From assembly GCF_028023675.1 (NCBI RefSeq), contig NZ_JAQIOZ010000028.1:1-48268 (forward strand): a DNA stretch of 48,268 bases. The letters run 5' to 3'. The notes beneath the pieces are model-generated. The model had not been told where the DNA came from, did no database searches, and saw only the letters and a list, made by a program, of their open reading frames with translations. This DNA comes from Primorskyibacter aestuariivivens (GTDB lineage: Bacteria; Pseudomonadota; Alphaproteobacteria; Rhodobacterales; Rhodobacteraceae). Below, piece by piece: positions 29,569 to 46,433 of the stretch (within the stretch, counting starts at the first letter, position 1; each line of letters begins with the position of its first letter). Position numbers and translations under genes: made by a program.

Positions 29569-29922
29569 TTAAGCCTTTTCCTCAACGATCGGGGTAAACC
29601 CGCCCCACATCATCCGCTTGCCATCAAAAGGCATATCCATGTCCTGCCAGCGCGGATCGCTCTCCATACTTGCGCCGCATTTGTCGTGGGATTCCTTGTC
29701 GGGCCAGATGATCCAGGAAAAACAGACGGTTTCACCATCCTTCAGCGCCACGGCGCTTTTGAAATCGGTGTGTTCGCCTTCGGGGATATAATCGCCCCAG
29801 GCCTCCACCATCTGCAAGGCTCCATAGTCCTTGAACAATGGCCAAGCCTTGCGGACGCTTGCGATATAGGCCTCTTTGTTTTCATTCGGGACGGGGGTCA
29901 GGATCCCGGCAACATAGGTCAT
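29569..29922 (-). CDS. DUF1428 family protein (YbaA-like)
   Basis: This 117-residue protein matches DUF1428 throughout: MTYVAGILTPVP start, VEAWGDYIPEG, FSWIIWPDKESHD and MPFDGKRMMWGGF. It forms a dimeric alpha-beta barrel (ferredoxin-like) fold whose role is unknown, often found beside stress genes. ATG 29922 has AGGAG upstream; the longer frame to 29961 is rejected. It heads the - strand operon and is divergent from the HxlR gene. Confidence 0.9.
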   Translation of the reverse strand: MTYVAGILTPVPNENKEAYIASVRKAWPLFKDYGALQMVEAWGDYIPEGEHTDFKSAVALKDGETVCFSWIIWPDKESHDKCGASMESDPRWQDMDMPFDGKRMMWGGFTPIVEEKA

Positions 29923-30114
29923 CAATTGTCTCCTCTTAGCGTCTTGGCATGCGCCAATCATTGATCACGACAGGGCGGCCTATCGTCTTTGACTATGGCC
30001 CCTCGGCAGCGCCATTTACGAACTTGGATATTGCATGTGCTGTGACATGGGATTTCTCGCGATTCGTATGGCCGATATGGACAAGCTAATGGGTATCGGT
30101 TATTAAAGGCAACC

Positions 30115-30801
30115 ATGAAGTTACAAAAAGATACCACATCGGCGGAATCCCCCCATGGGCGCTGGTACGCAGATGCCTGCGGCACGGCATTTGGGTTGGA
30201 GCTGCTGGGCGAGCGCTGGTCCATGTTAATCGTGCGCGAGCTGATGTTCGGGCCGCGCCGTTTCAGTGATATTCGCACCAGCCTTCCCGGCTTAAGCGCC
30301 AAAGTATTGACCGAACGGCTCGCCGGGCTTGAGGCGAATGGCGTGATCGTGCGTTCAACTGCGCCGGACCCCGCGCCCGCGCAGCTTTATGGTCTGACGG
30401 ACTGGGGCTATGCGGCTGAACCGATCATAAGCGAGCTCGGACGTTGGGCCGCCGCCTCGCCATTGCATGACCCGACGTTGCCCCTGTCGCCGGTGTCTTT
30501 TATGCTATCGCTGAGAACGATGCTCAAAACCGACGCCGCGCAAGGGATGAAGGTTGTTGTTCAGTTTACCATCGGCAAGGCGCGCTTTACGGCCCGCCTT
30601 GAAGACGGTGCCATGCCTGTGACACGCGGGGAAACTAACGCCTCCGACCTGCACTTCACGGCTCCCGCCGCCCCGCCATTAGCTGCGGTGTTTTATGGTA
30701 ACATGGCCCCCGAAACGGTTGGCGTTGAGATCACTGGAGTTGCGGGCCTGTGTCACAGGTTCGTCGACCTGTTCGAACTCCCCACGCAATGCACGACATA
30801 G
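30115..30801 (+). CDS. HxlR-family regulator with SCP2-like C-terminal part
   Basis: This 228-residue protein has an HxlR winged-helix domain at 18-115 (GLELLGERWSMLIVRELMFG, GLSAKVLTERLAGLE). Cys22, just before the first helix, occupies the position of the redox-sensing Cys of YodB/CatR-type regulators. The C-terminal 100 residues are extra compared with the 100-130 residue core and resemble a sterol-carrier/SCP2-type ligand domain. It is divergent from the DUF1428-GST-hydrolase operon, with 192 bases between, so it probably represses that operon until a thiol-reactive compound appears (inference). Confidence 0.82.
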   Translation: MKLQKDTTSAESPHGRWYADACGTAFGLELLGERWSMLIVRELMFGPRRFSDIRTSLPGLSAKVLTERLAGLEANGVIVRSTAPDPAPAQLYGLTDWGYAAEPIISELGRWAAASPLHDPTLPLSPVSFMLSLRTMLKTDAAQGMKVVVQFTIGKARFTARLEDGAMPVTRGETNASDLHFTAPAAPPLAAVFYGNMAPETVGVEITGVAGLCHRFVDLFELPTQCTT

Positions 30802-30824
30802 CGCCGCCTTCAGGCCCCCTGCCG

Positions 30825-31632
30825 GCTTTGTCAGGTTGTTGACCCGACCCAGCTGCATGCATAGCCCTCTGTCATGATCAGCAAAGTTTCACAGCCTCGC
30901 CTGAAGGGCTTCCGCTTCCCCCGTTCCGTCATCTCTTACGCCGTCTGGGCGTATCACCGCTTTGCACTGAGCCTGCGCGATGTCGAAGATCTGCTGGCCG
31001 AGCGAGGTGTGATCGTCTCCTACGAAAGCATCCGTGTTTGGTGCCAACGGTTCGGTGCGCAGGTCGCCGCGAGTATCCGTCGCGACCGCCCGGCCCCGAC
31101 CGACAAATGGCACCTCGACGAGGTCGTGATCTCAATCCGAGGTCAGAAGCACTGGCTTTGGCGGGCGGACGATACGAATGGCGACGTGCTGGAGATCCTG
31201 GTCCAAAGTCGTAGGAATGCCCATGCTGCCAAGCGATTTCTTCGAAAACTGGTCCGGCGATGGGGCGTACCGCGGGTCATTGTGACCGACAAGCTCCGCA
31301 GCTATAGCGTCGCCGTCCGGGGGCTTTGCCTAAGCGTCGAGCACCGCTCGCACAAGGGGTTGAACAACCGGTCAGAAGCTTCGCATCGACACATAAGGCG
31401 ACGAGAAAAGATCATGGGTCGCTTCAAATCTTCGCGCCAAGTGCAGAGATTTCTTTCCGTTCACGATCAGACCGCAACCTTGTTCCGTCCGAAGCGCCAT
31501 TGCCTCTCCGCAGTATCCTATCGCCAATCTCGGGCTGATGCGTTCAGCCTGTGGAACGATTATGCGGCTGAAATGACCGCATAATGATGGTGCCGGTCTT
31601 GGTCACGTCGCGGTAAAACAACCTGACAAAGC
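30825..31632 (+). mobile_element. IS6-family insertion sequence (complete)
   Basis: Perfect 16-bp inverted repeats GCTTTGTCAGGTTGTT lie at 30825-30840 and, inverted, 31617-31632. They enclose one intact transposase; the size of 808 bp is typical of IS6. No 8-bp target duplication is visible, so replicon fusion or deletion may have separated the original flanks, as IS6 does. It sits exactly between the detoxification region and the TRAP/hydroxylase island. Confidence 0.88.
30874..31584 (+). CDS. IS6-family transposase
   Basis: This 236-residue DDE transposase is intact: N-terminal FRFPRSVISYAVWAYHRFAL, first Asp in KWHLDEV, second in IVTDKLRSY, and Glu in NNRSEASHRHIRRREK. The C-terminal third is similar to that of the remnants A-C, but it is a different element because terminal repeats differ. 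Length matches the family. Confidence 0.94.
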   Translation: MISKVSQPRLKGFRFPRSVISYAVWAYHRFALSLRDVEDLLAERGVIVSYESIRVWCQRFGAQVAASIRRDRPAPTDKWHLDEVVISIRGQKHWLWRADDTNGDVLEILVQSRRNAHAAKRFLRKLVRRWGVPRVIVTDKLRSYSVAVRGLCLSVEHRSHKGLNNRSEASHRHIRRREKIMGRFKSSRQVQRFLSVHDQTATLFRPKRHCLSAVSYRQSRADAFSLWNDYAAEMTA

Positions 31633-31751
31633 TCGCGCGAGTTCAGAAAGGCCAAAACCGAAATCGCTTAGGTGTCCCGTGAAACAAGGGCCGGATCACT
31701 CTGCTTCTCCGAGGCCAATTTCATGAAGCTTTTCGACCACTTCAGTATGAC

Positions 31752-31805
31752 ATATTAGTTACGTATTACTTGCATATTGACCGTCGATCAAAAGTCGTTT
31801 ATGAG
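31752..31805 (+). promoter_or_regulatory. Candidate TRAP operon promoter
   Basis: TTGACC (31777-31782), 17 bases, then TATGAG (31800-31805) form a plausible sigma-70 promoter 115 bases before dctP. An ATATTAG motif at 31752-31758, in an AT-rich stretch, recurs in the promoter of the opposing hydroxylase operon and may be part of a shared operator. Confidence 0.4.
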
Positions 31806-31919
31806 TCTCCGATGCAGCTCTCCGGCGCCGACAAACGTCCGTCTCCGTCGACGATACCTAAGAAGAATGACGGTTTGGAAGGGAAGAGCCTGCAAGAAAC
31901 CGAATAGGGAGGAAATCTT

Positions 31920-32999
31920 ATGTCACCGTGGAAGAAAGGCATCGCGACCGTTGCGCTGGCCGCCAGCATGACCGGCGCTCTGTTGAGCAGCGCGGCGCTC
32001 GCCGCCGAACACGAATGGAAAATGGCCACCACCGTCACCGGCGGTCCGATGATGGAACTGGGCGCCGAAGCCTTCGCTGAGCGCGTGTCGCAAATGACCG
32101 AAGGCCGTGTCGAGATCGAGGTGTTTCCCGCCGGTACGCTGGGCAAGGCGCTCGACGTCACCACCACTGTGAAACGGGGCGTGGCCGAGGTCGGCCACAC
32201 ATGGATGGGGTACGACTGGGGTAGGGACAAGACCACCGTGCTCTTCGGCGGTTTCGCCGGCTCGATGGACAGCGAGCGCATGCTGCACTGGCTCTATCAG
32301 GGCGGCGGCCAGGAACTCTGGACCGAATTCCGCCGGGATCGCTTCGGCATCGTCTCCATGCCGCTCTTTATGCGCCCCGCCGAGGTTTTCCTGCATTCCA
32401 AGAAACCCGTCTCGACGCTCGAGGACCTGCAAGGTCTCAAGATTCGCACCGCCGGGGCGTGGCTGGAGATTTCCAACGAGCTGGGCGCCTCGCCCGTCAC
32501 CATGGCCGGTAGCGAGGTCTACACCTCACTCGAACGCGGCACCATCGACGCGGCCGAATGGGGCTCGCTCTATGAAAACGTTTCGCCCGGCTTTTACCAG
32601 ATCGCCAAATACGTGGTTATCCCTGGCGTGCACCAGCCCGTCGGGCCGGGTGAGCTGATCATTAACGACGCCGCCTTCGAGGCCCTGTCGGACCATGACA
32701 AGGAAATGGTTAAGCTCGCCGCCATGCTGGTGACGTTCGAAAGCTGGATGCGCCTCGGAAACGAGGACGCCAAGGCGTTGGAATTCTACCGCGAGAACGG
32801 CAACGAGATCATCGTCCTGGAGGACGAGGTAAAGGACGCCGCCAAGCGCCTCGGCATGGAATGGGCCGACCGCCAGGCCGAGGGCAACGAATGGTTCGAG
32901 CGCGTGCTCGCCTCCCAGCGTGAGTTCGAGTCCGCATGGTCGGAGGCCGACAGCTATCGCAAGATGGCCCTGCCGCCGCAGGACAGCTCGTCCAACTGA
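31920..32999 (+). CDS. dctP: TRAP transporter substrate-binding protein
   Basis: This 359-residue periplasmic protein captures an organic acid for the DctQM membrane part. It has a signal peptide (about 1-29, ending SAALAA) and DctP-type segments: QMTEGRVEIEVFPAGTLGKA, LQGLKIRTAGAWLE with the conserved Arg that binds a carboxylate, and VYTSLERGTIDAAEW. Length matches the family (330-360). A strong GGAGG lies 8 bases before the ATG. It resembles the branch that binds 2-oxo or hydroxy acids, but the ligand cannot be told from sequence. First gene of a four-gene + strand operon. Confidence 0.92.
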   Translation: MSPWKKGIATVALAASMTGALLSSAALAAEHEWKMATTVTGGPMMELGAEAFAERVSQMTEGRVEIEVFPAGTLGKALDVTTTVKRGVAEVGHTWMGYDWGRDKTTVLFGGFAGSMDSERMLHWLYQGGGQELWTEFRRDRFGIVSMPLFMRPAEVFLHSKKPVSTLEDLQGLKIRTAGAWLEISNELGASPVTMAGSEVYTSLERGTIDAAEWGSLYENVSPGFYQIAKYVVIPGVHQPVGPGELIINDAAFEALSDHDKEMVKLAAMLVTFESWMRLGNEDAKALEFYRENGNEIIVLEDEVKDAAKRLGMEWADRQAEGNEWFERVLASQREFESAWSEADSYRKMALPPQDSSSN

Positions 33000-33017
33000 A
33001 CGCCCAACCGGACAGGC

Positions 33018-33049
33018 GCAGCCCCGACCCGCTGAGGGGCCGGGGCTGC
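33018..33049 (+). terminator. GC-rich hairpin between dctP and dctQ
   Basis: GCAGCCCCG (33018-33026) pairs perfectly with CGGGGCTGC (33041-33049). There is no T tract. Hairpins in this place often protect the dctP transcript or attenuate transcription, so that the binding protein is made in excess over the membrane subunits. Confidence 0.7.
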
Positions 33050-33074
33050 TTCGCCGTTCATAGGAAACTCTGAC

Positions 33075-33590
33075 ATGATTACATCCATTCGCCGCTTCAT
33101 CGGAGCGATCAGTGGTGTCCTGGGCTATTTCTCGGCCCTGATCCTCGTCCCTCTGATCCTCGCCTCGGTCTACGAGGTCATCTCTCGCTACGTCTTCAAC
33201 CAGCCGACCATCTGGGCCTACGAAATCGGCTACATGGCAATGGGCGCCTCCTTCCTGCTGGGCTCCGCCTACGCCCTGCGCGACGGCCAGCATGTGCGCA
33301 TCGACGTCCTCGCCTGCCGCTTCTCGCCGCGTCTCAAGGCCATTCTGGATCTCGCGGGATACCTGCTTCTGTTCCTGCCGATCGGCATCTGGCTGACCTT
33401 CGCGCTCTATCACTACATGATCGAGGCCTATGAATGGGGCGAACGCTCCGGTGAAAGCGCGTGGAACCCTGTCGTCTGGCCCTATCACCTCGTATTCTTC
33501 ACGGCCTTCGTGGCGATGGTGCTCCAGGCCATCGCCGAAGCGCTCGGCTGCCTCCAGGTCCTGTTTGCCCCCGACGCGAAGGAGGTCTGA
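33075..33590 (+). CDS. dctQ: TRAP transporter small permease subunit
   Basis: This 171-residue protein with four membrane segments (about 10-35, 48-70, 92-115 and 132-155) contains the DctQ signature: a conserved E in NQPTIWAYEIGY and LRDGQHVRIDV. It links the binding protein to DctM. It lies 75 bases after dctP and ends 3 bases before dctM, whose Shine-Dalgarno (AAGGAGG) overlaps its last codons. Confidence 0.92.
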   Translation: MITSIRRFIGAISGVLGYFSALILVPLILASVYEVISRYVFNQPTIWAYEIGYMAMGASFLLGSAYALRDGQHVRIDVLACRFSPRLKAILDLAGYLLLFLPIGIWLTFALYHYMIEAYEWGERSGESAWNPVVWPYHLVFFTAFVAMVLQAIAEALGCLQVLFAPDAKEV

Positions 33591-33593
33591 GCC

Positions 33594-34910
33594 ATGGAAT
33601 ATCTCGCACTCTGGATGTTCCCGGTCTTGCTGCTGATCCTGCTGACCGGCTTTCCGATCGCCTTCTCGCTGATGGGCGTCGCCACGATCTTCGGCTACAT
33701 CACCTTCGGCGACACCGTCATCTACCAGTTCATCGACAAGATCGACGAGGTCGCGGGCAACTTCGTGCTCGCCGCCGTGCCGCTCTTCGTCTTCATGGGC
33801 ACCATGCTGGAAAAATCCGGCATCGCGGAACGCCTCTTCGACGCGGTCCATATCTGGACCCGCCGCCTGCCTGGCGGGCTGGGGGTCGGTACGATCTTCA
33901 TGTGCGTCATCTTCGCCGCTTCCACAGGCGTGATCGGCGCGACAGAAACCGTGGTGGGGCTTCTGGCTATCCCGGTCATGATGAAACACAACTACAACAA
34001 GGGACTCATCTCGGGCACGATCTGCGCCGGCGGCTCGCTGGGCACCATAATCCCGCCCTCGGTTGTGGTCATCATCATGGGGCCGATCGCGGACGTATCG
34101 GTCGGCGATCTCTTCATCGGCATGATCATCCCCGGCCTGACCATGGCAACGCTTTACGTCATCTACATCATAGGCCGCTGCTACCTGCGCCCGCAGGACG
34201 GCTCGCTCGTCTCGGATGACGAGTATCTGCCAACGCTGGGCGAGCGGCTCTGGATCACGGTGACGGCCTTCCTGCCGGCGGCGCTGATGATCTTCGCGGT
34301 GCTGGGTTCGATCATGATGGGTCTCGCCTCTCCGACAGAGGCGGCGGCGATGGGCGCCTTCGGGGCCGTGATCCTGGCGGCGGTCTACCGCACGCTTACC
34401 TGGACGACACTGCGCCTTGCCTTGCTGAACACGGTCAAGGTCACGTCGATGATCCTCATGATCCTGCTGGCAGGCTCGATGTTTTCGGGCGTCTTCGTCG
34501 GTGCGGGCGGCACCCGTGTCACGACCGAACTGATCGCCGCCTCCGATCTCAGCCCCTGGGCCACGCTGGCGGTGTTCTTGATCATCGTCTTCATCGCTGG
34601 CTTCGCACTGGAATGGATCTCGATCCTTCTGATCTTCCTGCCGGTCTTCATTCCGATCGTCACGCAACTCGGCTTCGACCCGGTTTGGTTCTGCATCCTC
34701 TTCCTGATCGTGATACAAACCAGCTACCTATCGCCGCCGATGGCCCCGGCCATCTTCTACCTGCGCGGCATCGCACCGCCGGAGATCACCATGCCCGACA
34801 TGTTCAAGGGGGTCGTGCCCTTCATCATCCTTCAGCTCTTCACGCTGGCGCTGGTGATGGCCTTCCCGCAGATGGTTCTCTGGCTGCCGGAGAAAGTCCT
34901 TGGCTTCTAG
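33594..34910 (+). CDS. dctM: TRAP transporter large permease subunit
   Basis: This 438-residue inner-membrane protein has about 11-12 hydrophobic segments. It includes the DctM features GTMLEKSGIAERLFD, GGSLGTIIPPSVVVIIMG and SYLSPPMAPAIFYLRG, which line the Na+-coupled transport path. Length is usual (425-440). It starts 3 bases after dctQ and its end overlaps the oxidoreductase gene by 11 bases. Confidence 0.94.
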   Translation: MEYLALWMFPVLLLILLTGFPIAFSLMGVATIFGYITFGDTVIYQFIDKIDEVAGNFVLAAVPLFVFMGTMLEKSGIAERLFDAVHIWTRRLPGGLGVGTIFMCVIFAASTGVIGATETVVGLLAIPVMMKHNYNKGLISGTICAGGSLGTIIPPSVVVIIMGPIADVSVGDLFIGMIIPGLTMATLYVIYIIGRCYLRPQDGSLVSDDEYLPTLGERLWITVTAFLPAALMIFAVLGSIMMGLASPTEAAAMGAFGAVILAAVYRTLTWTTLRLALLNTVKVTSMILMILLAGSMFSGVFVGAGGTRVTTELIAASDLSPWATLAVFLIIVFIAGFALEWISILLIFLPVFIPIVTQLGFDPVWFCILFLIVIQTSYLSPPMAPAIFYLRGIAPPEITMPDMFKGVVPFIILQLFTLALVMAFPQMVLWLPEKVLGF

Positions 34911-36042
34911 ACAAAAGCTCCTTGTCGTCGGCGGCGGGTATGTCGGCTGCGACGTGGCCCGCCGGCTCGACCAGGTGATGGACGTCACCCTGGTCGAGCC
35001 GAAACCGGCCTTCCTCCACGCTCCCGCCATGATCCGCGCATTGGTCGAACCCGACCTGCTGACGGCCGCGACGATCCCCTATGACGGCCTGCTGCGCGAA
35101 GGCCGGTTTGTTCGGGGCCGTGTCGCCGCCCTTCATTCCAAAGGCGTAACCCTTGAGGATGGCACGGAGATAGCGAGCGACTTCACCCTTGTCGCCACTG
35201 GCTCCTCCTATAACCTGCCCTTCAAATCCTCAGCGGAAGACATTGAAGTTTTCCTCGACGCGCACAGAACACTCTCGGACCGCATCGCGCAGGCCCGACA
35301 TATCGCCATTGTCGGTGCGGGTCCGGTCGGCACCGAACTCGCGGGCGAAATCGCGACGGCCCGGCCCGACGTGCAGATCACCCTGATCGCCGCCGGCCCG
35401 AATCCGATGCCTGACCTGCCGGAGCGGCTGGGCCGCGCACTCATGAACCGGCTGCACAGGCTGGGGGTCAAAGTCATCACGCATCGCACCGCGCCCGGCA
35501 TTGCTGCCGGCATGGATGCACAGGACGGCCCTCTGGGTCTTTCGGACGGGCAAGACGTCGCGGCAGACCTCGTGCTCCCCGCGCTCGGCGCGATTCCCTG
35601 CACCGATCTTCTCTCCGCGCTGCCCTCAGTGCGCCTCGACGGCGCGGGGCGCGTGGTGACAGACGCATGGCTGCGACCCGCACCGGGCGCTCTGCCGGGG
35701 CTGCTCGCGGGCGGCGACATGGCCGCCACCGGCGACGCAATGACCATCGTCGGCACGCTCCGCCAAACCCCTTACCTGACGAAAACCCTCCGCGCGGCCG
35801 CCAAGGGCAAGCCGATCGACACCCAGACGCCCTATCGGCCCTGGCGCGAAGCCCCTATGCTCGTGCCTGTCGGCCCACGCCTCGGCGCCACCCACCTGCC
35901 CCTGCCGGGCCTATTGGCTTTGGCCGGCACCATGCGCGGCCCCGGCGACACGCTGACACGCCTTACAAAAGGCCGCGACCTCTTTGTGGGAAAATACCGC
36001 CGGCTGCTCGGCGCGCAGCGCTTCAAAGGGTCGCGCGGGTGA
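34900..36042 (+). CDS. FAD-dependent NAD(P)H oxidoreductase (NDH-2/AIF-like)
   Basis: This 380-residue flavoprotein has FAD motif VVGGGYVGCD (9-18), ATGSSYNLPF, NAD(P)H motif VGAGPVGTELAGE (about 139-151) and a second FAD motif LLAGGDMAATGD. The pattern resembles NDH-2/AIF/FSP1-type reductases, without a redox disulfide. The start is a TTG at 34900, after GGAG and within the end of dctM; no ATG fits. Translation coupling to a transporter is unusual and suggests an integral pathway role: it may feed electrons to the membrane hydroxylase encoded on the facing operon (inference). Its 3' end overlaps the convergent GntR gene by 20 bases. Confidence 0.85.
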   Translation: MASRQKLLVVGGGYVGCDVARRLDQVMDVTLVEPKPAFLHAPAMIRALVEPDLLTAATIPYDGLLREGRFVRGRVAALHSKGVTLEDGTEIASDFTLVATGSSYNLPFKSSAEDIEVFLDAHRTLSDRIAQARHIAIVGAGPVGTELAGEIATARPDVQITLIAAGPNPMPDLPERLGRALMNRLHRLGVKVITHRTAPGIAAGMDAQDGPLGLSDGQDVAADLVLPALGAIPCTDLLSALPSVRLDGAGRVVTDAWLRPAPGALPGLLAGGDMAATGDAMTIVGTLRQTPYLTKTLRAAAKGKPIDTQTPYRPWREAPMLVPVGPRLGATHLPLPGLLALAGTMRGPGDTLTRLTKGRDLFVGKYRRLLGAQRFKGSRG

Positions 36043-36712
36043 ACTCGTAGATATAGTCCATCAGCTTATCCGATGCCTCGCCCGCTGCCGCCCGGTCACC
36101 CTCGGCGATCTTGCGCGCAACATCGGCGTGAAGGTTTGCACAGCATTCCAGGTCGAGCGCCACGCGGTAATTCTGGAACCAGAACCGTCGCGACAGGCCC
36201 TGCATACGACGCATCGACCGTTCAATGAACTCGTTGCGGCAAGCGGCCAGGACAGCCCGGTTGAACTCAAGGTCAAGTTGCATGAACGCGTCGTAATCTA
36301 TTGCGTCCGCCGAGGCGGCCAGCTTGGCGGCCAGTTCCGTGAAATGCTCTCGCTCTGCCTCGGTGGCTCGCTGCGCTGCCTTGCAGGCACATAACCGTTC
36401 CACTTCGCGCCGCAGTTCCAGCAGCAGCAATTGCTTGGCTATGTTGATCTCGGACACCATGACCCCGCGTCGTGGCATCACCACAACCAGACCCTCGGCC
36501 GCCAGCCGCTGCAACGCCTCGCGCACAGGGGTGCGGCCTATGCCCAGTTCCTCGACAAGTTGCGATTCAGACAGCACCTGCCCCGGCTCCAGATCCAGCA
36601 CCACAATCCGCATCTCGATCATCTCGTAGGCCCGGTCGGTCAGCGTCACATTGTCGATCCTTCGGGCGCGCGCAGAAGCATTATCTAACACGTTCTCTGA
36701 GTCATTGTTCAT
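36023..36712 (-). CDS. GntR-family regulator with FCD domain
   Basis: This 229-residue protein has a winged helix at about 22-92 (LSESQLVEELGIGRTPVREALQRL is the GntR recognition region) and an all-helical FCD ligand domain at about 105-225. The latter has metal-binding candidates in DLEFNRAVLAAC and CCANLHADVARKI. FCD regulators sense carboxylates and usually repress. ATG 36712 follows an AGG; an upstream Met at 36769 is possible. Placed between the two operons of the island, it is the obvious candidate to control both. Confidence 0.88.
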   Translation of the reverse strand: MNNDSENVLDNASARARRIDNVTLTDRAYEMIEMRIVVLDLEPGQVLSESQLVEELGIGRTPVREALQRLAAEGLVVVMPRRGVMVSEINIAKQLLLLELRREVERLCACKAAQRATEAEREHFTELAAKLAASADAIDYDAFMQLDLEFNRAVLAACRNEFIERSMRRMQGLSRRFWFQNYRVALDLECCANLHADVARKIAEGDRAAAGEASDKLMDYIYEFTRATL

Positions 36713-36826
36713 AATTTGCCTGTCTGTGACCTTAACTGCGACCGTCCGAGGTGGATACTTTGTTGCCATATCAAAATCTACGGTGCTTCGGCCCATGCTG
36801 CAAGACTTGGGCGCGTTGTCGGCGGG

Positions 36827-37609
36827 TCACGACGCCACGGCGGCGCAGCATCCCGAGGCGAAGGCGGCCAGCGTCTCGGCGAGGGCTCCGGGCTGCTCTG
36901 CCATCGGCACATGCCCGCACCCCTGCCATAACTCCAGCCTCGAAGTGGCCAGACCAGCCGCAAGCGCGTTGCCATGATCCGGCGGGCACTCGGGGTCGGC
37001 GGTGCCGTGCAAAACCAGCACCGGCACGTCGATGCTGTCCAGAGCCGGGCGATAATCGACCTGCGCAGCGCTCAACCACGCCCCGGCCACCGCGATATCC
37101 GCCGCCGTGTCCGTCAGCTTCAATCGGCGCGCCCGGACCCGCGCCTCCTCGACGAGCGTATCGGGCGTGTTCCCGCGGAACCAGACCGCCGGTTCAAGCC
37201 CCTCGGCCTGCAAGCAGGCGCTGGTGCTGAGCAGCGCAAGCCCTGCCATCCGGTCCGACCCGCGCCTCTGCAAATGTTCCAGCGCGACGAGCCCGCCCAT
37301 GCTCCAGCCAACGAGCACAACGTTGCCCGCGATACCGTCCATCACTTCGGCCAAGTCGTCTGCGAAGTCCGTCATGCGATAGTGCTCGGCATTGTTTACC
37401 ACGAAAGACCCGCCCCGGCCCCGCAGGTTCGGCGCAATCACGTGCCAGTCCTGTGCAAGCACCGGGATCACGGCATCCCACACTGCCTGCGTGCCCTGTA
37501 TCCCGTGCACCAGTACCAGTGTGGGCCGGTCGGCGACAACGCGTCCCGCGACAGCCGCCTCGATCGGACCCTGCGGCGTCTCGACCCACACCTTTCGAAT
37601 GCCGCTCAT
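36827..37609 (-). CDS. Alpha/beta hydrolase (enol-lactone hydrolase-like)
   Basis: This 260-residue cytoplasmic hydrolase has LVHGIQGTQ, NLRGRG, nucleophile Ser103 in GWSMGG, Asp in HGTADPECPP and His in GCGHVPM. It resembles 3-oxoadipate enol-lactonase-like enzymes, so a lactone or ester is the likely substrate. The ATG overlaps the stop of the alcohol dehydrogenase gene (ATGA), so they are translated together. It is the last gene of the hydroxylase operon; the GntR gene follows. Confidence 0.88.
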   Translation of the reverse strand: MSGIRKVWVETPQGPIEAAVAGRVVADRPTLVLVHGIQGTQAVWDAVIPVLAQDWHVIAPNLRGRGGSFVVNNAEHYRMTDFADDLAEVMDGIAGNVVLVGWSMGGLVALEHLQRRGSDRMAGLALLSTSACLQAEGLEPAVWFRGNTPDTLVEEARVRARRLKLTDTAADIAVAGAWLSAAQVDYRPALDSIDVPVLVLHGTADPECPPDHGNALAAGLATSRLELWQGCGHVPMAEQPGALAETLAAFASGCCAAVAS

Positions 37610-38775
37610 GGTCCGAATTCGATCACGCTGCGGATGCTCTGGCCCCGGCGCAGCTTCTCGAAACCGGCATTGATCTCGTCAAGGGTGATCCGGTCGGTGA
37701 TCAGCCCGTCGAGGTCCAGTTTACCTTCCAGGTATTTCCGGCATAGCATCGGGAAATCCCTCCGGGGCCGCGTGTCACCATAGCTCGACCGGCGGATACG
37801 CTTCTCCTGCATAAGCGAGCCCCAGCGGAAACCGACATCCTTCTCGACATCCACCTTGCCCAGCCAGATCACCTCGCCGCCCGGGCGCACCGCTTCGACG
37901 CTCAGGCGAAAGGCCGGCTCGTTTCCGGCGCTTTCCAACACGACGTCCGCGCCCCGGCCGTCTGTCAGGGACCGGACGAGTTCTTCCACGCTATCCGTCT
38001 TCGGGTTGATCCGGTGCGTCGCCCCCATCCCGCAGGCCGCATCCAGCCTCGCCTCGTTCAAGTCGACGGCAATGACGTTCTGCGCCCCGCCAATCACCGC
38101 GCCCTGCACAGCCGCAAGGCCCACCGCGCCACAGCCTATCACCATCGCGGTGCTTCCAGGGCGGATATCCGCCACATTCAGCGCAGCACCGACGCCGGTC
38201 ATCACCCCGCACCCGATCAACGCGGCCCGGTCGAATGGCATTTCCTTGGGTATCGGAATCGCCTGCTGGTCCTCGACCACGCAATATTCCCCAAAAGTCC
38301 CGAGATACATCAGCTGGTGCAGGTCCTGTCCACCAGCCAGCCGCGCCCTCGGTTGCCCGTCAAAGGCGAACCCCGCAGGGCCGTTGGCCAGGAAGGTCTC
38401 GCAAAGGATCGGCAGGCTCTGGTCGCAGTAGAAACAGTCACCGCACTTGGGGTTCCACGACAGGACAACATGATCTCCCACCGCGACGCCCTTCGCTTCA
38501 GTGCCGCAGGCCGTGACCACACCGGCTGCCTCGTGGCCCAGCACGGCGGGCATTCCCAGCCGCAGCGAGCCGTCGATCACTTCCAAGTCCGTATGACAAA
38601 GCCCCGCGGCGCGGATCTTGACCATCACATCGCGCGTCCTAAGCGCGCCGGGTTCGACATCCTCGATCGTCATCGCCTCGCCCGGAGAGCGCAGCACGGC
38701 GGCCCGGAAGGTCTTCGGTATCCCGGGGTCATCCGCCGCGTGCACCGTCTTCGAGTCGTCCAGTGGGGCCATCAT
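37606..38775 (-). CDS. Zinc-dependent alcohol dehydrogenase
   Basis: This 389-residue MDR enzyme, class III-like, oxidises an alcohol with NAD(P)+. The catalytic zinc site is Cys60 (GLCHTD), His81-Glu82 (GHEAAG) and a later Cys in IGCGVMTG. The structural zinc site is Cys111, 114, 117 and 125 (CGDCFYC...C). The cofactor motif is GCGAVGLA, followed by an acidic residue in AVDLNEA, favouring NAD+. It overlaps its neighbours on both sides by 4 bases. It would oxidise the alcohol made by the hydroxylase encoded upstream (inference). Confidence 0.92.
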   Translation of the reverse strand: MMAPLDDSKTVHAADDPGIPKTFRAAVLRSPGEAMTIEDVEPGALRTRDVMVKIRAAGLCHTDLEVIDGSLRLGMPAVLGHEAAGVVTACGTEAKGVAVGDHVVLSWNPKCGDCFYCDQSLPILCETFLANGPAGFAFDGQPRARLAGGQDLHQLMYLGTFGEYCVVEDQQAIPIPKEMPFDRAALIGCGVMTGVGAALNVADIRPGSTAMVIGCGAVGLAAVQGAVIGGAQNVIAVDLNEARLDAACGMGATHRINPKTDSVEELVRSLTDGRGADVVLESAGNEPAFRLSVEAVRPGGEVIWLGKVDVEKDVGFRWGSLMQEKRIRRSSYGDTRPRRDFPMLCRKYLEGKLDLDGLITDRITLDEINAGFEKLRRGQSIRSVIEFGP

Positions 38776-39077
38776 GCCTGCTCCGGCTGAACCTGGGCCA
38801 CGGCAGCGCGTACATCCGCCTCGGTCATTTCCCAGTCGTTGCCGAAATTCGCGGTGACCTCGCGCATGAACGGCTCGGCCAGGCGCTTGGCAAGGCCCGC
38901 ATCGCCGGTCACGTCATAGATCAGCGCAAAGGCTAGCTGCGTCGCCGCCACCCCCTCGAAGCTCCATTCGAAGCCCGCGTTGGTGAACTTGCAGATATCG
39001 GCATAGTCCGGCAGATCCTTTTCATCGACGGTCACGATAACGCCGTCGATCGTCCTGTCTCCAAGATACGTCTTCAT
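38772..39077 (-). CDS. DUF6166 family protein
   Basis: This 101-residue soluble protein has the DUF6166 layout: MKTYLGDRTIDGVIVTVDE start, a central GFEWSFEGVAATQLAFALI and a helical end. Function is unknown. ATG 39077 has GGAGG 6 bases upstream and overlaps the preceding gene's stop; the stop overlaps the alcohol dehydrogenase start. Its tight place in a catabolic operon suggests a structural or chaperone role for the pathway, not visible in sequence. Confidence 0.8.
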   Translation of the reverse strand: MKTYLGDRTIDGVIVTVDEKDLPDYADICKFTNAGFEWSFEGVAATQLAFALIYDVTGDAGLAKRLAEPFMREVTANFGNDWEMTEADVRAAVAQVQPEQA

Positions 39078-39268
39078 GATGTCCTCCGCGCATCGGCCTT
39101 GGACCGCATCACTTCGGGGAAGATCCACAGCGACCCGACGCTGAACGGTCCAAGAAAGGCAATGGCCCATTGCGGTCCGGTCTGTCCCAGGTGTCCCATG
39201 TAAAACCATCCCCCGATGGCCGCGAGCGCCACCAGCGTGGACAGCGCGATTTTGATAATGACGGGCAT
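39074..39268 (-). CDS. Small two-helix membrane protein
   Basis: This 64-residue protein has two hydrophobic segments (about 4-26 and 34-52) and a basic C-terminal tail (MRSKADARRTS). I do not recognise a family. An AGGAGG-rich leader (39278-39285 region) precedes the ATG, and the stop overlaps the DUF6166 start. Candidate small subunit or anchor for the membrane hydroxylase system. Confidence 0.75.
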   Translation of the reverse strand: MPVIIKIALSTLVALAAIGGWFYMGHLGQTGPQWAIAFLGPFSVGSLWIFPEVMRSKADARRTS

Positions 39269-39324
39269 CTCAGCCTCCTCCTTCTGATAGTGTTTGCCGG
39301 GTCAATCGGACCCGCGATCTTGGC

Positions 39325-39696
39325 TCAGGCCATACCTGCCAGCGCCCATACCGAGACGCCGAGGCCGGCCATGACCACCGTCAGGCCCACGGTCCCGTCG
39401 CGCCAACGGCTCGGCCACACGTTGAACAGGCCCGGCATGAACAGCAGGGCGAACCCAGTGATGATGACCACGCTGGTCCAACGCAGCTCGGCCAGGCCGA
39501 AGCCAAAGCTCATGTACAGCACCGCGCCCAGAAGGACGCAGTTCGCCACCACCAGGGCAAATCCCAACGGCCGCTTCAGTTCGGGCCGCGTCGACAGCGG
39601 GAAGACGCCGGTCAACACGATGGCGGCCAGGCTGGCCACACAGGCGAACAGCGCAAAGATGAAGGCAGCGGTAATATTCGGCTCGATATTGGCCAT
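39325..39696 (-). CDS. Four-helix membrane protein, unknown
   Basis: This 123-residue protein has four membrane segments (about 8-30, 43-68, 74-92 and 100-121). No cofactor-binding motif is visible apart from single Cys residues, and I recognise no family. ATG 39696 gives the natural start with GGAG nearby; a longer frame reaches 39768. It lies between the hydroxylase gene and the small membrane protein gene, same strand, and probably forms part of the same membrane complex. Confidence 0.75.
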   Translation of the reverse strand: MANIEPNITAAFIFALFACVASLAAIVLTGVFPLSTRPELKRPLGFALVVANCVLLGAVLYMSFGFGLAELRWTSVVIITGFALLFMPGLFNVWPSRWRDGTVGLTVVMAGLGVSVWALAGMA

Positions 39697-39732
39697 GAGG
39701 TGGCTCCGTCTTTTCCGGGATGTCTTGATAGT

Positions 39733-39759
39733 GCCCGGCCCTGTCATGCGGGGCCGGGC
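39733..39759 (-). terminator. GC-rich hairpin downstream of the hydroxylase gene
   Basis: GCCCGGCCC (39733-39741) pairs with GGGCCGGGC (39751-39759), directly after the hydroxylase stop on the - strand and without a clear T tract. Likely partial terminator or mRNA stabiliser raising hydroxylase levels over the rest of the operon. Confidence 0.65.
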
Positions 39760-39768
39760 AGAAGTCAC

Positions 39769-40566
39769 TTACTCGGCGGGAGTCGCGTTCGTCGTCTCGT
39801 CCGTGCCGCGGACCGGTGTGCGGGACACCTTGCGCATATCCTTGCGGACGTGCTTGGTGTCATAGCCGTTGAACAGGTGTCCGATCAGGCCGCGATTCAA
39901 GTCCGACGTTCCGAACAGCCAGTCCATGATCGGGAACGTGAGATTCATGTTGCGCTCCATCATCAGCGACTGGTCGTGATGCGCTGTGTGGTGACGGCGA
40001 CTGGTGTTGATGAAGGGCATGTTGCGCACGAACCAGTTATCCTCGACGTGGCAACAGAAATGCATGAACTCGTAGATCATGTAGATCGAGGTTGTGGTGG
40101 CGATGAACAGCCAGCCCACATTGGGCGTAAACAGCCAACCCATCACGATCGCACCTGGGATCGACATCAGAGTGAAAGCCGCCAGCGCATAAGGCGGGAA
40201 AAACGTCACGCGGTAATCTTTCTGACCCGCGAAGCGCATCTCCACCTCGGTGAAAAACTGGTGATGCTGCAGTGTGTGCCGGTTGTAGACTGCGCGGGCG
40301 ACAGGGTTCTTCGAAGGCCGGTGCAATACGTAGCGGTGCAGCCACCACTCGAAGAAGTTGCAGAACAGGAAGACCAGCGGCACCGTCAGCCATTCCAGCG
40401 GCGTCACCTGGCTGAGGTTTGCGGTATAGATATAAAGCGCGGTCAGCCCGATCGTGTAGATGATCACGATATGCAGGAAACCATTGTACCAGCCCGCCAC
40501 TCGCTGCCGGTAGTTGGCCCGGTACTGGCGCTGGCGTTCGGTCATGTTGGTGTCTTGAAGTTCCAT
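39769..40566 (-). CDS. Membrane di-iron hydroxylase (sterol desaturase family)
   Basis: This 265-residue protein has about four membrane segments and the histidine boxes of the fatty acid hydroxylase / sterol desaturase superfamily: HRYVLH (His78, 82), HTLQHH (His97, 101, 102), HFCCH (His169, 173) and HHTAHH (His192, 193, 196, 197). These bind two irons that activate O2 to hydroxylate or desaturate a hydrophobic substrate in the membrane. ATG 40566 has GGAGG close upstream. It needs an electron donor; the NAD(P)H flavoprotein of the facing operon is the candidate. It heads the - strand operon. Substrate unknown: the company of a TRAP transporter suggests a small acid. Confidence 0.88.
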   Translation of the reverse strand: MELQDTNMTERQRQYRANYRQRVAGWYNGFLHIVIIYTIGLTALYIYTANLSQVTPLEWLTVPLVFLFCNFFEWWLHRYVLHRPSKNPVARAVYNRHTLQHHQFFTEVEMRFAGQKDYRVTFFPPYALAAFTLMSIPGAIVMGWLFTPNVGWLFIATTTSIYMIYEFMHFCCHVEDNWFVRNMPFINTSRRHHTAHHDQSLMMERNMNLTFPIMDWLFGTSDLNRGLIGHLFNGYDTKHVRKDMRKVSRTPVRGTDETTNATPAE

Positions 40567-40597
40567 GGTCAGCCTCCGATATACCATTTCTCGATGT

Positions 40598-40626
40598 CTG
40601 ATATATTAGAAATATGTTTATGTCAA
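40598..40626 (-). promoter_or_regulatory. Promoter of the hydroxylase operon
   Basis: On the - strand TTGACA (40626-40621), 17 bases, TATCAG (40603-40598) form a good promoter 32 bases before the ATG. The spacer contains ATATTAG in a partly dyadic AT-rich stretch also found near the TRAP promoter, a fitting site for a repressor such as the GntR protein. Confidence 0.5.
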
Positions 40627-40650
40627 GGACAGTAATCGGACCGTGATGGT

Positions 40651-40855
40651 GTGGATACCCCCACTCAACGGCATCGCATTGTGCCAGAATGGTGACGTAT
40701 CACCAAGCAACGAGGAGGGTGTCCATGGACGATGTTACACTGATAGGGGTCGATTTGGCCAAGAGGGTTTTTCATTTGCACGGCGCTGCTGCAGATGGAT
40801 CGGTTGTGTTTCGCAAACTTCTGCTCGGGTCGAAGGTGGCTGAGCTGTGGGCATA
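40651..40855 (+). pseudogene. IS110-family left end and transposase N-terminus
   Basis: The leader resembles that of the IS110 element at 11887. ATG 40725 opens MDDVTLIGVDLAKRVFHLHG, the N-terminus of an IS110 transposase, which ends at TAA 40853-40855 after 43 residues where IS6 sequence takes over. The element was cut by that IS6 copy or by a deletion. Confidence 0.8.
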
Positions 40856-44232: not shown

Positions 44233-45249
44233 TCAGTCTTCTGAACGCTGCTTCCAGCGTTCATGAAGTTCTTCAATCAAATCATCAGCTTCAGACTCTA
44301 CCCAGTCGGCAAACTTACTATTCTGCAACTCGATCGAGATCCCTTTGGCGGTGCGTTTGAGCGTGCCGCCACGTTTGCCCCCAATCCTGAGCGGCTGACT
44401 GGATGCAGCAGAAGGGGAGGGGGCCTTGGCCGGTTTGACCATCCTTGTGACAACCTTCGACACGGCCTCGAACGCCTGCACAGAGGGGTCGTCGGTCGCA
44501 GGTACGGCATCAATCACCATGGCCACATCGGCCTTGCCATGGGTTTCCTCAGCAAGGCGGATCAGGCTGCCCCGATCCAGGTCGTTGTCCGCGATGGCAC
44601 GGCCCATGGCCTCCCACCGGGGTCGGCCGATACCGTGTGCAGCACCGATGGCGCGGATGAGGTCTGTACCGACCATGTCGGCGATGGCGATGGCCATGGA
44701 CACCGAAGATTTGGTCACGGTCAGAACTTCTGCAACCTGTGATTGATTTCCAAAGCCCGACGATACGAGTTCTTGCGCAAATATCGCCTTTTCAATGAAG
44801 GACAAATCGCGGCGCGCCATGTTTTCGGAAATCTGCGCACGCAGGGCACTGTCATCATCCAGATTGGCAACCAGTGCGCGCACCTTGGCGACCTTGTCTG
44901 ACTGGCGGATCGCCTCGAGCCGCCGGCGACCATAGACGAGCAGATAGCGGTCCGCCTCTGACGGGTGCCGGCGCACAAGAATTGGTACGGTCTGACCATT
45001 CGCCTCGATTGCGGCGCGCAGATCATGTACATCGGCTGGATCAAGCCGGTCGGCCATTCGGTCGTCGACGATACTGGCCGGGTCGAGTTCCCAGACATGA
45101 TGTGAATCGACCGCATCACGGGCCGAGCGCAGGGCGCGGTTGGACGTCATCATAGGGGTCGCGGCACCAGCCTGAGGGGTAGGGGCCGGGCCACCGGCTG
45201 CCGCGAGATTGTCGAGCATCGACATCCGTTTTTTCTTGCCACTCGTCAT
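44233..45249 (-). CDS. repB: Partition protein RepB (ParB family)
   Basis: This 338-residue DNA-binding partition protein has the ParB N-terminal domain with VPILVRRHPSEADRYLLVYGRRRLEA split by residues 90-118 (the CTP-binding GRRR box), ISENMARRDLSFIEKA and a helix-turn-helix near NQSQVAEVLTVTKSSVSMAI. It would bind the twin palindromes at 42771 and 42816. The start MTSGKKKRMS at 45249 overlaps the repA stop (ATGA); the longer frame from 45261 is rejected. Confidence 0.95.
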   Translation of the reverse strand: MTSGKKKRMSMLDNLAAAGGPAPTPQAGAATPMMTSNRALRSARDAVDSHHVWELDPASIVDDRMADRLDPADVHDLRAAIEANGQTVPILVRRHPSEADRYLLVYGRRRLEAIRQSDKVAKVRALVANLDDDSALRAQISENMARRDLSFIEKAIFAQELVSSGFGNQSQVAEVLTVTKSSVSMAIAIADMVGTDLIRAIGAAHGIGRPRWEAMGRAIADNDLDRGSLIRLAEETHGKADVAMVIDAVPATDDPSVQAFEAVSKVVTRMVKPAKAPSPSAASSQPLRIGGKRGGTLKRTAKGISIELQNSKFADWVESEADDLIEELHERWKQRSED

Positions 45250-46433
45250 GACCGCCCCCACGTTTTCTGAATAAGATCAGCGACTTCATCGTTCAGCGCG
45301 TTCAGGCTTTCAAGGGCGCGATCGTAGGTCGTGCGGGTAAAGGCGCTCCGCTCGACTTCGTATAGGGTTTGCTTTGTCAGACCTGCATCGGAGATCGCCG
45401 TGGATTTGAGCATTGGCGAGTTGAGCACCGCATCGCCATACATGGTGCGCAGAAAGGCGACGATCCGGTTTTGTGGTGCATCCTGAGGTTCATAGCGTGT
45501 CAGCGCATAGCGCATCCAGTCGTGGGACATGTCCGCACCGCTTTCGGCGATCACGTCCATTAGATCAGCCGTCATGCGCAGAAATTGCGACATCGACATC
45601 ACGTCGAGCATTTCCGGATGAATTGTGACCAGTACGCCGGTGGCGGCCGAAAGTGCGGACATGGTGAGAAAGCCCAGTTGCGGCGGGCAGTCGATGACCA
45701 CAACATCGTAATCGCCGTCAACCTGCGCCAACGCCTCTTTCACGCGGAAAAAGAACAGGCCTGCGTTGCCTTGTGAAAGAGCACGCGGCGTTTCGTGTTC
45801 GAACTCCATCAGTTCCAGATTGCCCGGGATCAGGTCGAGGTTCGGGATATAGGTCTTGCGGATGACAGCGCGGATCGGCTCTGGGTCGTCATAGCGGATC
45901 GCGTCATAGAGCGTGCCGCCATCTGTCAGATCGAATTCGGGCTGTACGCCATGTAACGCCGTGAATGAGGCCTGCGGATCAAGATCAATGCCCAGGACGC
46001 GATAACCGCGCAAGGCCAGCCGTTGTGCAAGGTGTGCCGAAGTCGTCGTTTTGCCCGAACCTCCCTTGAAGTTCATCACACCGATGACTTGCAGGTGATC
46101 GCCATCACGCCGTCCGGGGATATAGTCTCCAGGCTTGCGCGCGGTCTTTTCCAGCAGGATACGCAGGGCCTGAATGTCCTGCGCGGAATACAGGCGACGA
46201 TTGCCGGCCGTCAGTTCAGGCGAAGGGCCCTTGCCATCAAGGTTGATTTTGCGCAGGTATGAGTCGTTCACACCAAGAAGCGCTGCCGCCTCGCCGGAGG
46301 TGAATTTGCGCATTTCCTTTGTGGCGTCAGGGGGAAACAGGCTCTCGCGTTGCGAATGCAACTGGTTGGCCAGCCACTCGGAATGCTGGCGGATGACCGC
46401 GTTCAGGTCCTGATGCACGAAAGTCTTGTTCAT
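45246..46433 (-). CDS. repA: Partition ATPase RepA (ParA family)
   Basis: This 395-residue ATPase drives plasmid segregation and represses the operon. It has an N-terminal MerR-like helix-turn-helix (about 44-92: FTSGEAAALLGVNDSYLRKI), a deviant Walker A KGGSGKTT (123-130), the IDLDPQAS box and DYDVVVIDCPPQ (Walker B). It is first in the operon repA-repB-repC, coupled to repB by a 4-base overlap. The 236 bases upstream, before vapB, must hold its promoter. Confidence 0.95.
   Translation of the reverse strand: MNKTFVHQDLNAVIRQHSEWLANQLHSQRESLFPPDATKEMRKFTSGEAAALLGVNDSYLRKINLDGKGPSPELTAGNRRLYSAQDIQALRILLEKTARKPGDYIPGRRDGDHLQVIGVMNFKGGSGKTTTSAHLAQRLALRGYRVLGIDLDPQASFTALHGVQPEFDLTDGGTLYDAIRYDDPEPIRAVIRKTYIPNLDLIPGNLELMEFEHETPRALSQGNAGLFFFRVKEALAQVDGDYDVVVIDCPPQLGFLTMSALSAATGVLVTIHPEMLDVMSMSQFLRMTADLMDVIAESGADMSHDWMRYALTRYEPQDAPQNRIVAFLRTMYGDAVLNSPMLKSTAISDAGLTKQTLYEVERSAFTRTTYDRALESLNALNDEVADLIQKTWGRS

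Follow-up and report, generated by a model that had tools for sequence, protein, structure and literature searches.

A probable GntR/FCD-controlled gene island on mobile DNA of Primorskyibacter aestuariivivens with a possible role in hydroxylation and cleavage of a small carboxylic acid

The 48,268-nucleotide stretch of Primorskyibacter aestuariivivens DNA analyzed here, referred to as the window, is a whole contig (NZ_JAQIOZ010000028.1) of a 4.29-Mb genome. At 31920-40587 the open reading frame listing and the sequence place an island of 11 genes, coding for a tripartite ATP-independent periplasmic (TRAP) transporter (DctPQM), a flavoprotein, a GntR/FCD regulator, an alpha/beta-hydrolase (ABH), a zinc alcohol dehydrogenase (ADH), a DUF6166 protein, two membrane proteins of 64 and 123 residues (TM64 and TM123) and a membrane di-iron hydroxylase (HYD). 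Elsewhere in the alphaproteobacteria the set is found again in company with an operator-like palindrome, and some of its parts are exchanged as modules. We class the island as a catabolic regulon and not as a member of a named pathway; that it is one regulon, presumably under the GntR/FCD regulator, is close to certain. Our explanation of the whole, to which we assign a probability of about 0.5, is that this single regulon may serve to hydroxylate and then cleave a small methyl-bearing 2-hydroxy or 2-oxo monocarboxylate.

The survey started from the hydroxylase. A genome scan for HYD gave 83 relatives, the best 80 of which were kept for tblastn and neighbor clustering, and plasmid records and regions of sampled genomes were added, resulting in 106 loci, 105 of them with a called HYD. 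Genes were called with a codon-based caller, and reduction by HYD sequence left 95 distinct loci, some on short contigs, to which the counts below refer. As all loci were found via HYD, the counts describe which genes accompany HYD and say nothing of how frequent each gene is overall, and kinship is ignored. Near HYD were DUF6166 (79 loci), TM64 (77), the GntR/FCD gene (70) and TM123 (56), followed by a PanB-like gene (42), DctM (26), a major facilitator superfamily (MFS) transporter (26), the zinc ADH (21), PhyH (18), the hydrolase (8 by profile, more by tblastn and annotation), a short-chain dehydrogenase/reductase (SDR; 2) and an iron-type ADH (2). TRAP and MFS genes, in 26 loci each, never shared a locus. 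The record of L098, which was left out of the profile tables because HYD was not called there, annotates a sterol desaturase, a small hypothetical protein, DUF6166, GntR and TRAP genes. The island set recurs in dozens of genomes. The earlier note had taken the two operons of the window for one functional unit that should co-occur elsewhere. They do stand together in L002, L004, L005 and L012, and this, with the shared operator described below, supports the unit; two chance operons lying side by side are ruled out by the operator and the co-occurrence counts.

The 11-mer TGAYATATTAG, read from the two promoters of the window, matches the whole 4.29-Mb genome at two places, 31748-31758 in the dctP promoter region (TGACATATTAG, plus strand) and 40599-40609 in the HYD promoter region (TGATATATTAG, plus strand; reverse CTAATATATCA). 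The site before HYD has the same register in L002, L003 and L004. Two similar 11-mers in one window might be chance, and the shared operator is trusted because of the survey of 95 loci, in which the palindrome TGATATATCA, frequently as CTGATATATCAG, forms its core. The form TRATATATYA occurred 104 times in 1.65 Mb, in 73 of the 95 loci, and 100 of the 104 sites lie within 300 bp upstream of an island gene, a recurrent palindrome before regulated genes such as a GntR/FCD regulon should have. By comparison, 29 further palindromes composed of these letters averaged 4.8 occurrences, of which 0.9, and at most 5, stood before island genes. The operator precedes PanB-like, PhyH, MFS, dctP and GntR genes, as well as the hydrolase and iron ADH genes of Azospirillum (L102), which ties these variable parts to HYD more firmly than adjacency does. 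The longer CTGATATATCA was found in 23 of 29 genomes or records (51 rows against 5 for the reversed control; 36 sites by coordinate count, 25 of them inside the island), and CTGATATATCAR occurred in 17 of 41. One G800 palindrome inside an apparent tctC coding sequence and three G800 sites beside unrelated genes were set aside; sites in L178, L181, L182, L183 and L184 have no clear target, and two G687 sites were left out. In our proposal the GntR protein would act at TGATATATCA-like sites to keep the two operons repressed, and binding of an inducer would relieve the repression.

In the window the two operons converge at the GntR/FCD gene (36023-36796, minus strand, 257 aa, PF00392 and PF07729), and all 11 genes were found in the layout that had been claimed. 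The plus-strand operon runs from dctP to the flavoprotein gene, which overlaps dctM by 11 nt at 34900 and, tail to tail, shares 20 nt with the GntR gene (36023-36042). On the minus strand, three 4-nt overlaps, at 39074, 38772 and 37606, were likewise confirmed.

HYD (39769-40587, minus strand, 272 aa) matched PF04116 (FA_hydroxylase) with an E-value of 5e-11 and 43.5 bits against a cut-off of 31. The histidine clusters HX4H, HX3HH, HX3H and HHX2HH show no variation across 36 aligned HYD rows. The best PDB matches of its predicted model were to Scs7p (4zr1 and 4zr0; probability 1.00, TM 0.47-0.50, E 0.0025-0.012); no PDB match reached E<=0.001, so that Scs7p is a distant match, yet the sole specific one. 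HYD belongs to the FA_hydroxylase/sterol desaturase superfamily, and would probably catalyze O2-dependent hydroxylation of an unactivated C-H bond. A role in modifying a membrane lipid or hopanoid, with the transporter and dehydrogenase genes as unrelated passengers, would agree with the likeness to the sphingolipid hydroxylase Scs7p in a superfamily rich in lipid hydroxylases. We regard it as improbable: in several loci the operator of HYD also stands before genes for a transporter, the PanB-like protein, the iron ADH or PhyH, these genes alternate as modules, and for a lipid enzyme uptake by a TRAP, MFS or Liv system would be superfluous. HYD shares its histidine pattern and probable fold with the superfamily, which includes sterol C4-methyl oxidase, but differs in its setting, among carboxylate transporters and short-chain enzymes that have a single operator in common; no recurrent lipid gene was found in the HYD neighbor clusters. 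Distant HYD relatives (37-43%) were seen at L105:7932-8633 and L106:7929-8633, in clusters with a GMC oxidoreductase, a molybdenum hydroxylase, an AMP ligase, an enoyl-CoA hydratase and, in L105 alone, UbiD. These clusters look like furan (hmf) clusters, and the relatives there are possible methylfuran hydroxylases.

Three small proteins accompany HYD. TM64 (39074-39268, minus strand) and TM123 (39325-39696, minus strand) had no Pfam or NCBIfam match at E<=0.01 and belong to no known family; TM64 keeps a W-FPE motif across 65 rows. The DUF6166 protein (38772-39077, minus strand, 101 aa, PF19663 5e-25) gave a predicted model with a mean confidence (pLDDT) of 93.5, and a known fold was rejected for it, as the model had no PDB match at E<=0.001. 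Their frequent partnership with HYD suggests that TM64, TM123 and DUF6166 may form a membrane complex with it. The flavoprotein, an NAD(P)H-dependent FAD oxidoreductase (34900-36042, plus strand, 380 aa, TTG start, PF07992 (Pyr_redox_2) 3e-32), is a less constant companion. The earlier note had made it the electron donor of the hydroxylase; by tblastn it was found in just 6 of 80 loci, all from Roseovarius, Roseibaca, Pontibaca or Paracoccus, and as a general, dedicated HYD reductase it is rejected.

The second step seems to be carried out by alternative enzymes. Among the 95 loci, 42 had the PanB-like gene and 25 an ADH of any kind (one doubtful), with none having both against 11 expected with kinship ignored. 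The ADHs come from three unrelated families, zinc-dependent medium-chain, SDR (L097, L099) and iron-type (L101, L102), and a hydrolase accompanies the ADH in L097, L099, L101 and L102. On the HYD tree the zinc ADH changes 6 times, at least 5 of them forced by well-supported branches, with the doubtful L072 counted. Since PanB-like protein and ADH never occur in one locus, they look like alternative finishes of one reaction. A retro-aldol cut, or oxidation followed by hydrolysis, would remove the same carbon, and this appears to be the simplest reason for the alternation.

In the window the second step would fall to the zinc ADH (37606-38775, minus strand, 389 aa, PF08240 and PF00107, ADH_N/ADH_zinc_N) and the PcaD-like ABH (36827-37609, minus strand, 260 aa, PF00561 5e-25). 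Neither reached a specific assignment: the ADH scored 312 bits for TIGR03989 (cut-off 440) and 249.9 bits for class III formaldehyde dehydrogenase TIGR02818 (cut-off 543.95), and the hydrolase, with PcaDC/PcaD as its best NCBIfam matches, 106.9 bits for TIGR02427, far below the cut-off of 255.85.

The PanB-like protein, present only in relatives of the window island, resembles PanB (PF02548) closely: the L020 copy scored 285.7 bits for the PanB equivalog TIGR00222 (cut-off 207.55), and the protein aligns to solved PanB along nearly its whole length. It differs at two positions, where 45 of 46 copies have Cys and Gln (the 46th has Cys, with the second site unreadable) and eight canonical PanB copies carry D and E; we take these positions to be the metal ligands D84 and E114 (E. 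coli numbering). The acidic metal ligands of PanB are therefore lacking in the PanB-like copies, which also differ from PanB in bearing the island operator. A separate canonical PanB is present in G000, G687, G420 and G776-G780, and in the single-contig genomes G768 and G573 the PanB-like protein is the sole PF02548 protein. No PanC match was found in G573, and the only one in G768 covers 49 residues at 22.0 bits (cut-off 20.7) and is not credible. A role in pantothenate synthesis is hardly possible in these two genomes, which lack both canonical PanB and a credible PanC, and is rejected. Beside the PanB-like gene, a small tautomerase/MIF-like protein is encoded directly 3' of it in two Methylobacterium (L016:12851-13285 and L025:12836-13270). 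Elsewhere in the genome of the window (L169:6596-8797, or about 30.6-32.8 kb of G000:C9), three consecutive genes close to ones like iolB and iolC code for a membrane oxygenase of the desaturase type, a Rieske ferredoxin and a divergent PanB-like protein. Here a PanB relative is again paired with a membrane oxygenase. G420 has a similar oxygenase/PanB-like set with a reductase, near a betaine-type binding protein (L170:9254-12583).

The transporter hints at the class of acid. DctP (31920-32999, plus strand, 359 aa, PF03480 6e-45) is followed by the small permease DctQ (33075-33590, plus strand, 171 aa, PF04290 5e-26) and the large permease DctM (33594-34910, plus strand, 438 aa, PF06808 4e-74, TIGR00786 over cut-off). 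The solved relatives of DctP include the lactate binder TTHA0766, the ketoacid binder 7ug8 and, as the top match, 2hzk, deposited as SmoM, which we take to be TakP. DctP resembles these TakP/TTHA0766-type binders in keeping the Arg and Glu-Trp positions and differs in a change of Gln, presumably the metal-binding residue, to Glu. As 2-oxo and 2-hydroxy monocarboxylate binders are among these relatives, the substrate may be a small acid of this class, a proposal to which we give slightly less than even odds. In other loci TRAP is replaced by MFS or Liv-type ATP-binding cassette (ABC) transporters.

Outside the island, a full 12-mer palindrome lies between lutABC and glcDEF in G778, G805 and G812, and before glcD, which reads with a stop, in G776; G799 and G781 have one-mismatch sites before glcD. 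By sequence reading and without statistics, glycolate/glyoxylate-type genes lie beside a few islands (L010, L011, L127, L138), with glcEF-like genes beside L010 and bhc-like genes beside L011. The operator at glcDEF/lutABC in a few related genomes, together with these neighbors, makes a 2-hydroxy acid as product or inducer our leading idea. With an exact site in 4 of 28 genomes, glcDEF as a universal member of the regulon is ruled out.

Taken together, we propose that the TRAP system, or elsewhere MFS or Liv ABC, would import the acid, and that HYD, perhaps complexed with TM64, TM123 and DUF6166, would use O2 to hydroxylate a methyl group (-CH3 to -CH2OH), after which the hydroxymethyl carbon would be removed. 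In the window version the zinc ADH would convert the -CH2OH group into an aldehyde or, starting from a hemiacetal, yield a formyl ester, from which the ABH would release formate. In many relatives the PanB-like protein could perform a one-step retro-hydroxymethyl transfer giving methylenetetrahydrofolate or formaldehyde. The leftover glycolate-like acid might then pass to GlcDEF/LutABC-type oxidation. The hydroxylate-then-cleave logic as such seems to us slightly better than an even bet. Of the scheme in the earlier note, uptake, hydroxylation, alcohol oxidation and hydrolysis survive as a module, without the flavoprotein as general donor. That scheme was also incomplete: elsewhere a PanB-like lyase, iron ADH or SDR replaces the zinc ADH, MFS or Liv ABC replaces TRAP, and the island is mobile.

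The same genes could instead encode an oxidative O-, N- or S-demethylase, in which HYD would turn a methoxy (or N- or S-methyl) acid such as methoxyacetate into a hemiacetal that decays to formaldehyde and glycolate, leaving the PanB-like protein (through folate) or the ADH and hydrolase (through a formate ester or thiol route) to handle only the one-carbon (C1) unit. The operator at glcDEF in four genomes would fit, as would the ADH and hydrolase, which resemble thiol-linked formaldehyde oxidation, with TIGR03451 and TIGR02818 as strong sub-threshold matches. In G783 and the SAR11-like G687, both PanB-type, neither class III formaldehyde dehydrogenase nor S-formylglutathione hydrolase gave a match over cut-off, and the PanB-like, membrane oxygenase and Rieske ferredoxin sets at L169 and L170 are also compatible. 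However, both formaldehyde enzymes are over cut-off in five of seven tested genomes (the host, G780, G781, G782 and G777), and the ADH and hydrolase as the only formaldehyde route of the host are thereby ruled out. Methylotrophs, which are rich in formaldehyde sinks, keep the PanB-like gene, SDRs are not known as formaldehyde dehydrogenases, and no paper joining methoxyacetate with glycolate was found in the open full texts searched. We therefore consider a demethylase rather unlikely.

Several observations weigh against the hydroxylation and cleavage of a small acid. Membrane FA_hydroxylases act mostly on hydrophobic substrates. The alternation of PanB-like protein and ADH is counted without regard to kinship, and the zinc ADH call in L072, at 31% identity, is doubtful. 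In 28 of the 95 loci, some with 10-kb flanks (L058, L066), there is neither PanB-like protein nor ADH, and in L004 the island is present although most of its ADH and hydrolase sequence is absent. The enzymes of the second step may thus come from elsewhere. PhyH, in 18 loci including TRAP versions, has no place in the proposed scheme. With regard to the operator, the dctP site of the window is itself one base off the TRATATATYA palindrome, exact CTGATATATCA was not found in 6 of the 29 genomes or records, the genome of the window among them, and no exact operator stands before glcD in 24 of the 28 island genomes examined. Finally, an 11-mer site precedes the transporter gene tctC in G776 and G778, in G776 beside a malonate decarboxylase gene, which the glycolate idea leaves unexplained. 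In Methylobacterium dankookense, malonate decarboxylase-like genes follow immediately on the one for the PanB-like protein (L021:12997-18366), and those of G776 (L179:2115-7079) follow a tctCBA transporter with an operator-like site.

The enzymes are of known families, and as far as our searches show, their combination, operator and alternation are undescribed in open full texts. The earlier note knew of no named pathway for the gene set, and none was found there either, with most subscription papers outside the search. The island might still belong to a known but unrecognized route, the breakdown of pantoate or pantolactone, a branched 2-oxo acid or an isoprene acid, as the PanB-like, lactonase-like and 2-hydroxyacid oxidase parts could fit pantoate-like chemistry. 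We think there is little chance of this: open full texts gave no such description, within a search that did not cover pantoate or isoprene acids by name, and we know of no role for HYD, the most constant member, in pantoate breakdown. Demethylation of ethers of the methyl tert-butyl ether (MTBE) type, through hemiacetal, formate ester and esterase, and methyl oxidation of the xylene monooxygenase type presumably follow the same order as the island. They are alike in combining methyl hydroxylation and alcohol dehydrogenase with a hydrolase or further oxidation, whereas the island differs in its hydroxylase family, acid transporters and PanB-like alternative; no paper making the MTBE-type comparison was found in open full texts.

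The island is probably sporadic and transferable. With its own genome included, HYD had a match at E<=1e-40 in 19 genomes of an even sample of 385 from the alphaproteobacteria, and in 16 of the 19 the identity was >=50% over most of its length. In the family 15 of 394 genomes gave a match at E<=1e-3, with an identity of >=60% in 5 of the 15, and in the genus 1 of 4 gave one. The sequence indicates that the island rides on mobile DNA. Positions 29773-40699, the island with an IS6-like element, are 99.2% identical to Roseovarius sp. A-2, and the element at the left edge, whose family name is given by reading, has a perfect 16-bp inverted repeat (30825-30840 and 31617-31632). In L004, homology to the window begins at base 31748, at the dctP operator-like site, and breaks between 36846 and 38596, so that most of the ADH and hydrolase genes are gone. 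The Cupriavidus USMAA2-4 version lies on a plasmid, flanked by Tn3-family transposases. In the window, apparent transposase remnants follow the right edge from about 40.7 kb, and genes at 44233-46433 resemble plasmid replication and partition proteins in their translations; the contig is probably a plasmid or part of one. A SAR11-like single-contig genome of 1.32 Mb, one of the 16 with a HYD at >=50% identity, holds GntR, PanB-like, dctPQM, PhyH, HYD and TM64 genes in one block (L138:9285-17197), followed by an FAD oxidoreductase gene similar to one beside the L013 island.

The island set spans ocean, soil and leaf bacteria. A wider version of our explanation, which we put forward tentatively and below even odds, is a widespread oxidative C1 removal in which HYD and its three orphan small partners would mark the methyl group of a common 2-hydroxy/2-oxo acid; a PanB with an altered metal site would pass the carbon to folate, and other lineages would use ADH and hydrolase under the same operator. 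Some genes annotated as panB are not pantothenate genes, and the function of DUF6166 and the two unnamed membrane proteins is brought within reach. Thanks to the operator, the interchangeable modules and the compact form of the island in the window, a single strain would suffice to test the proposal. That a streamlined SAR11-like genome has kept the set suggests a common natural substrate, so far not linked to the island. If true, the proposed route would give methylotrophs, soil bacteria and SAR11-like plankton a new way of feeding methyl carbon into their C1 metabolism.

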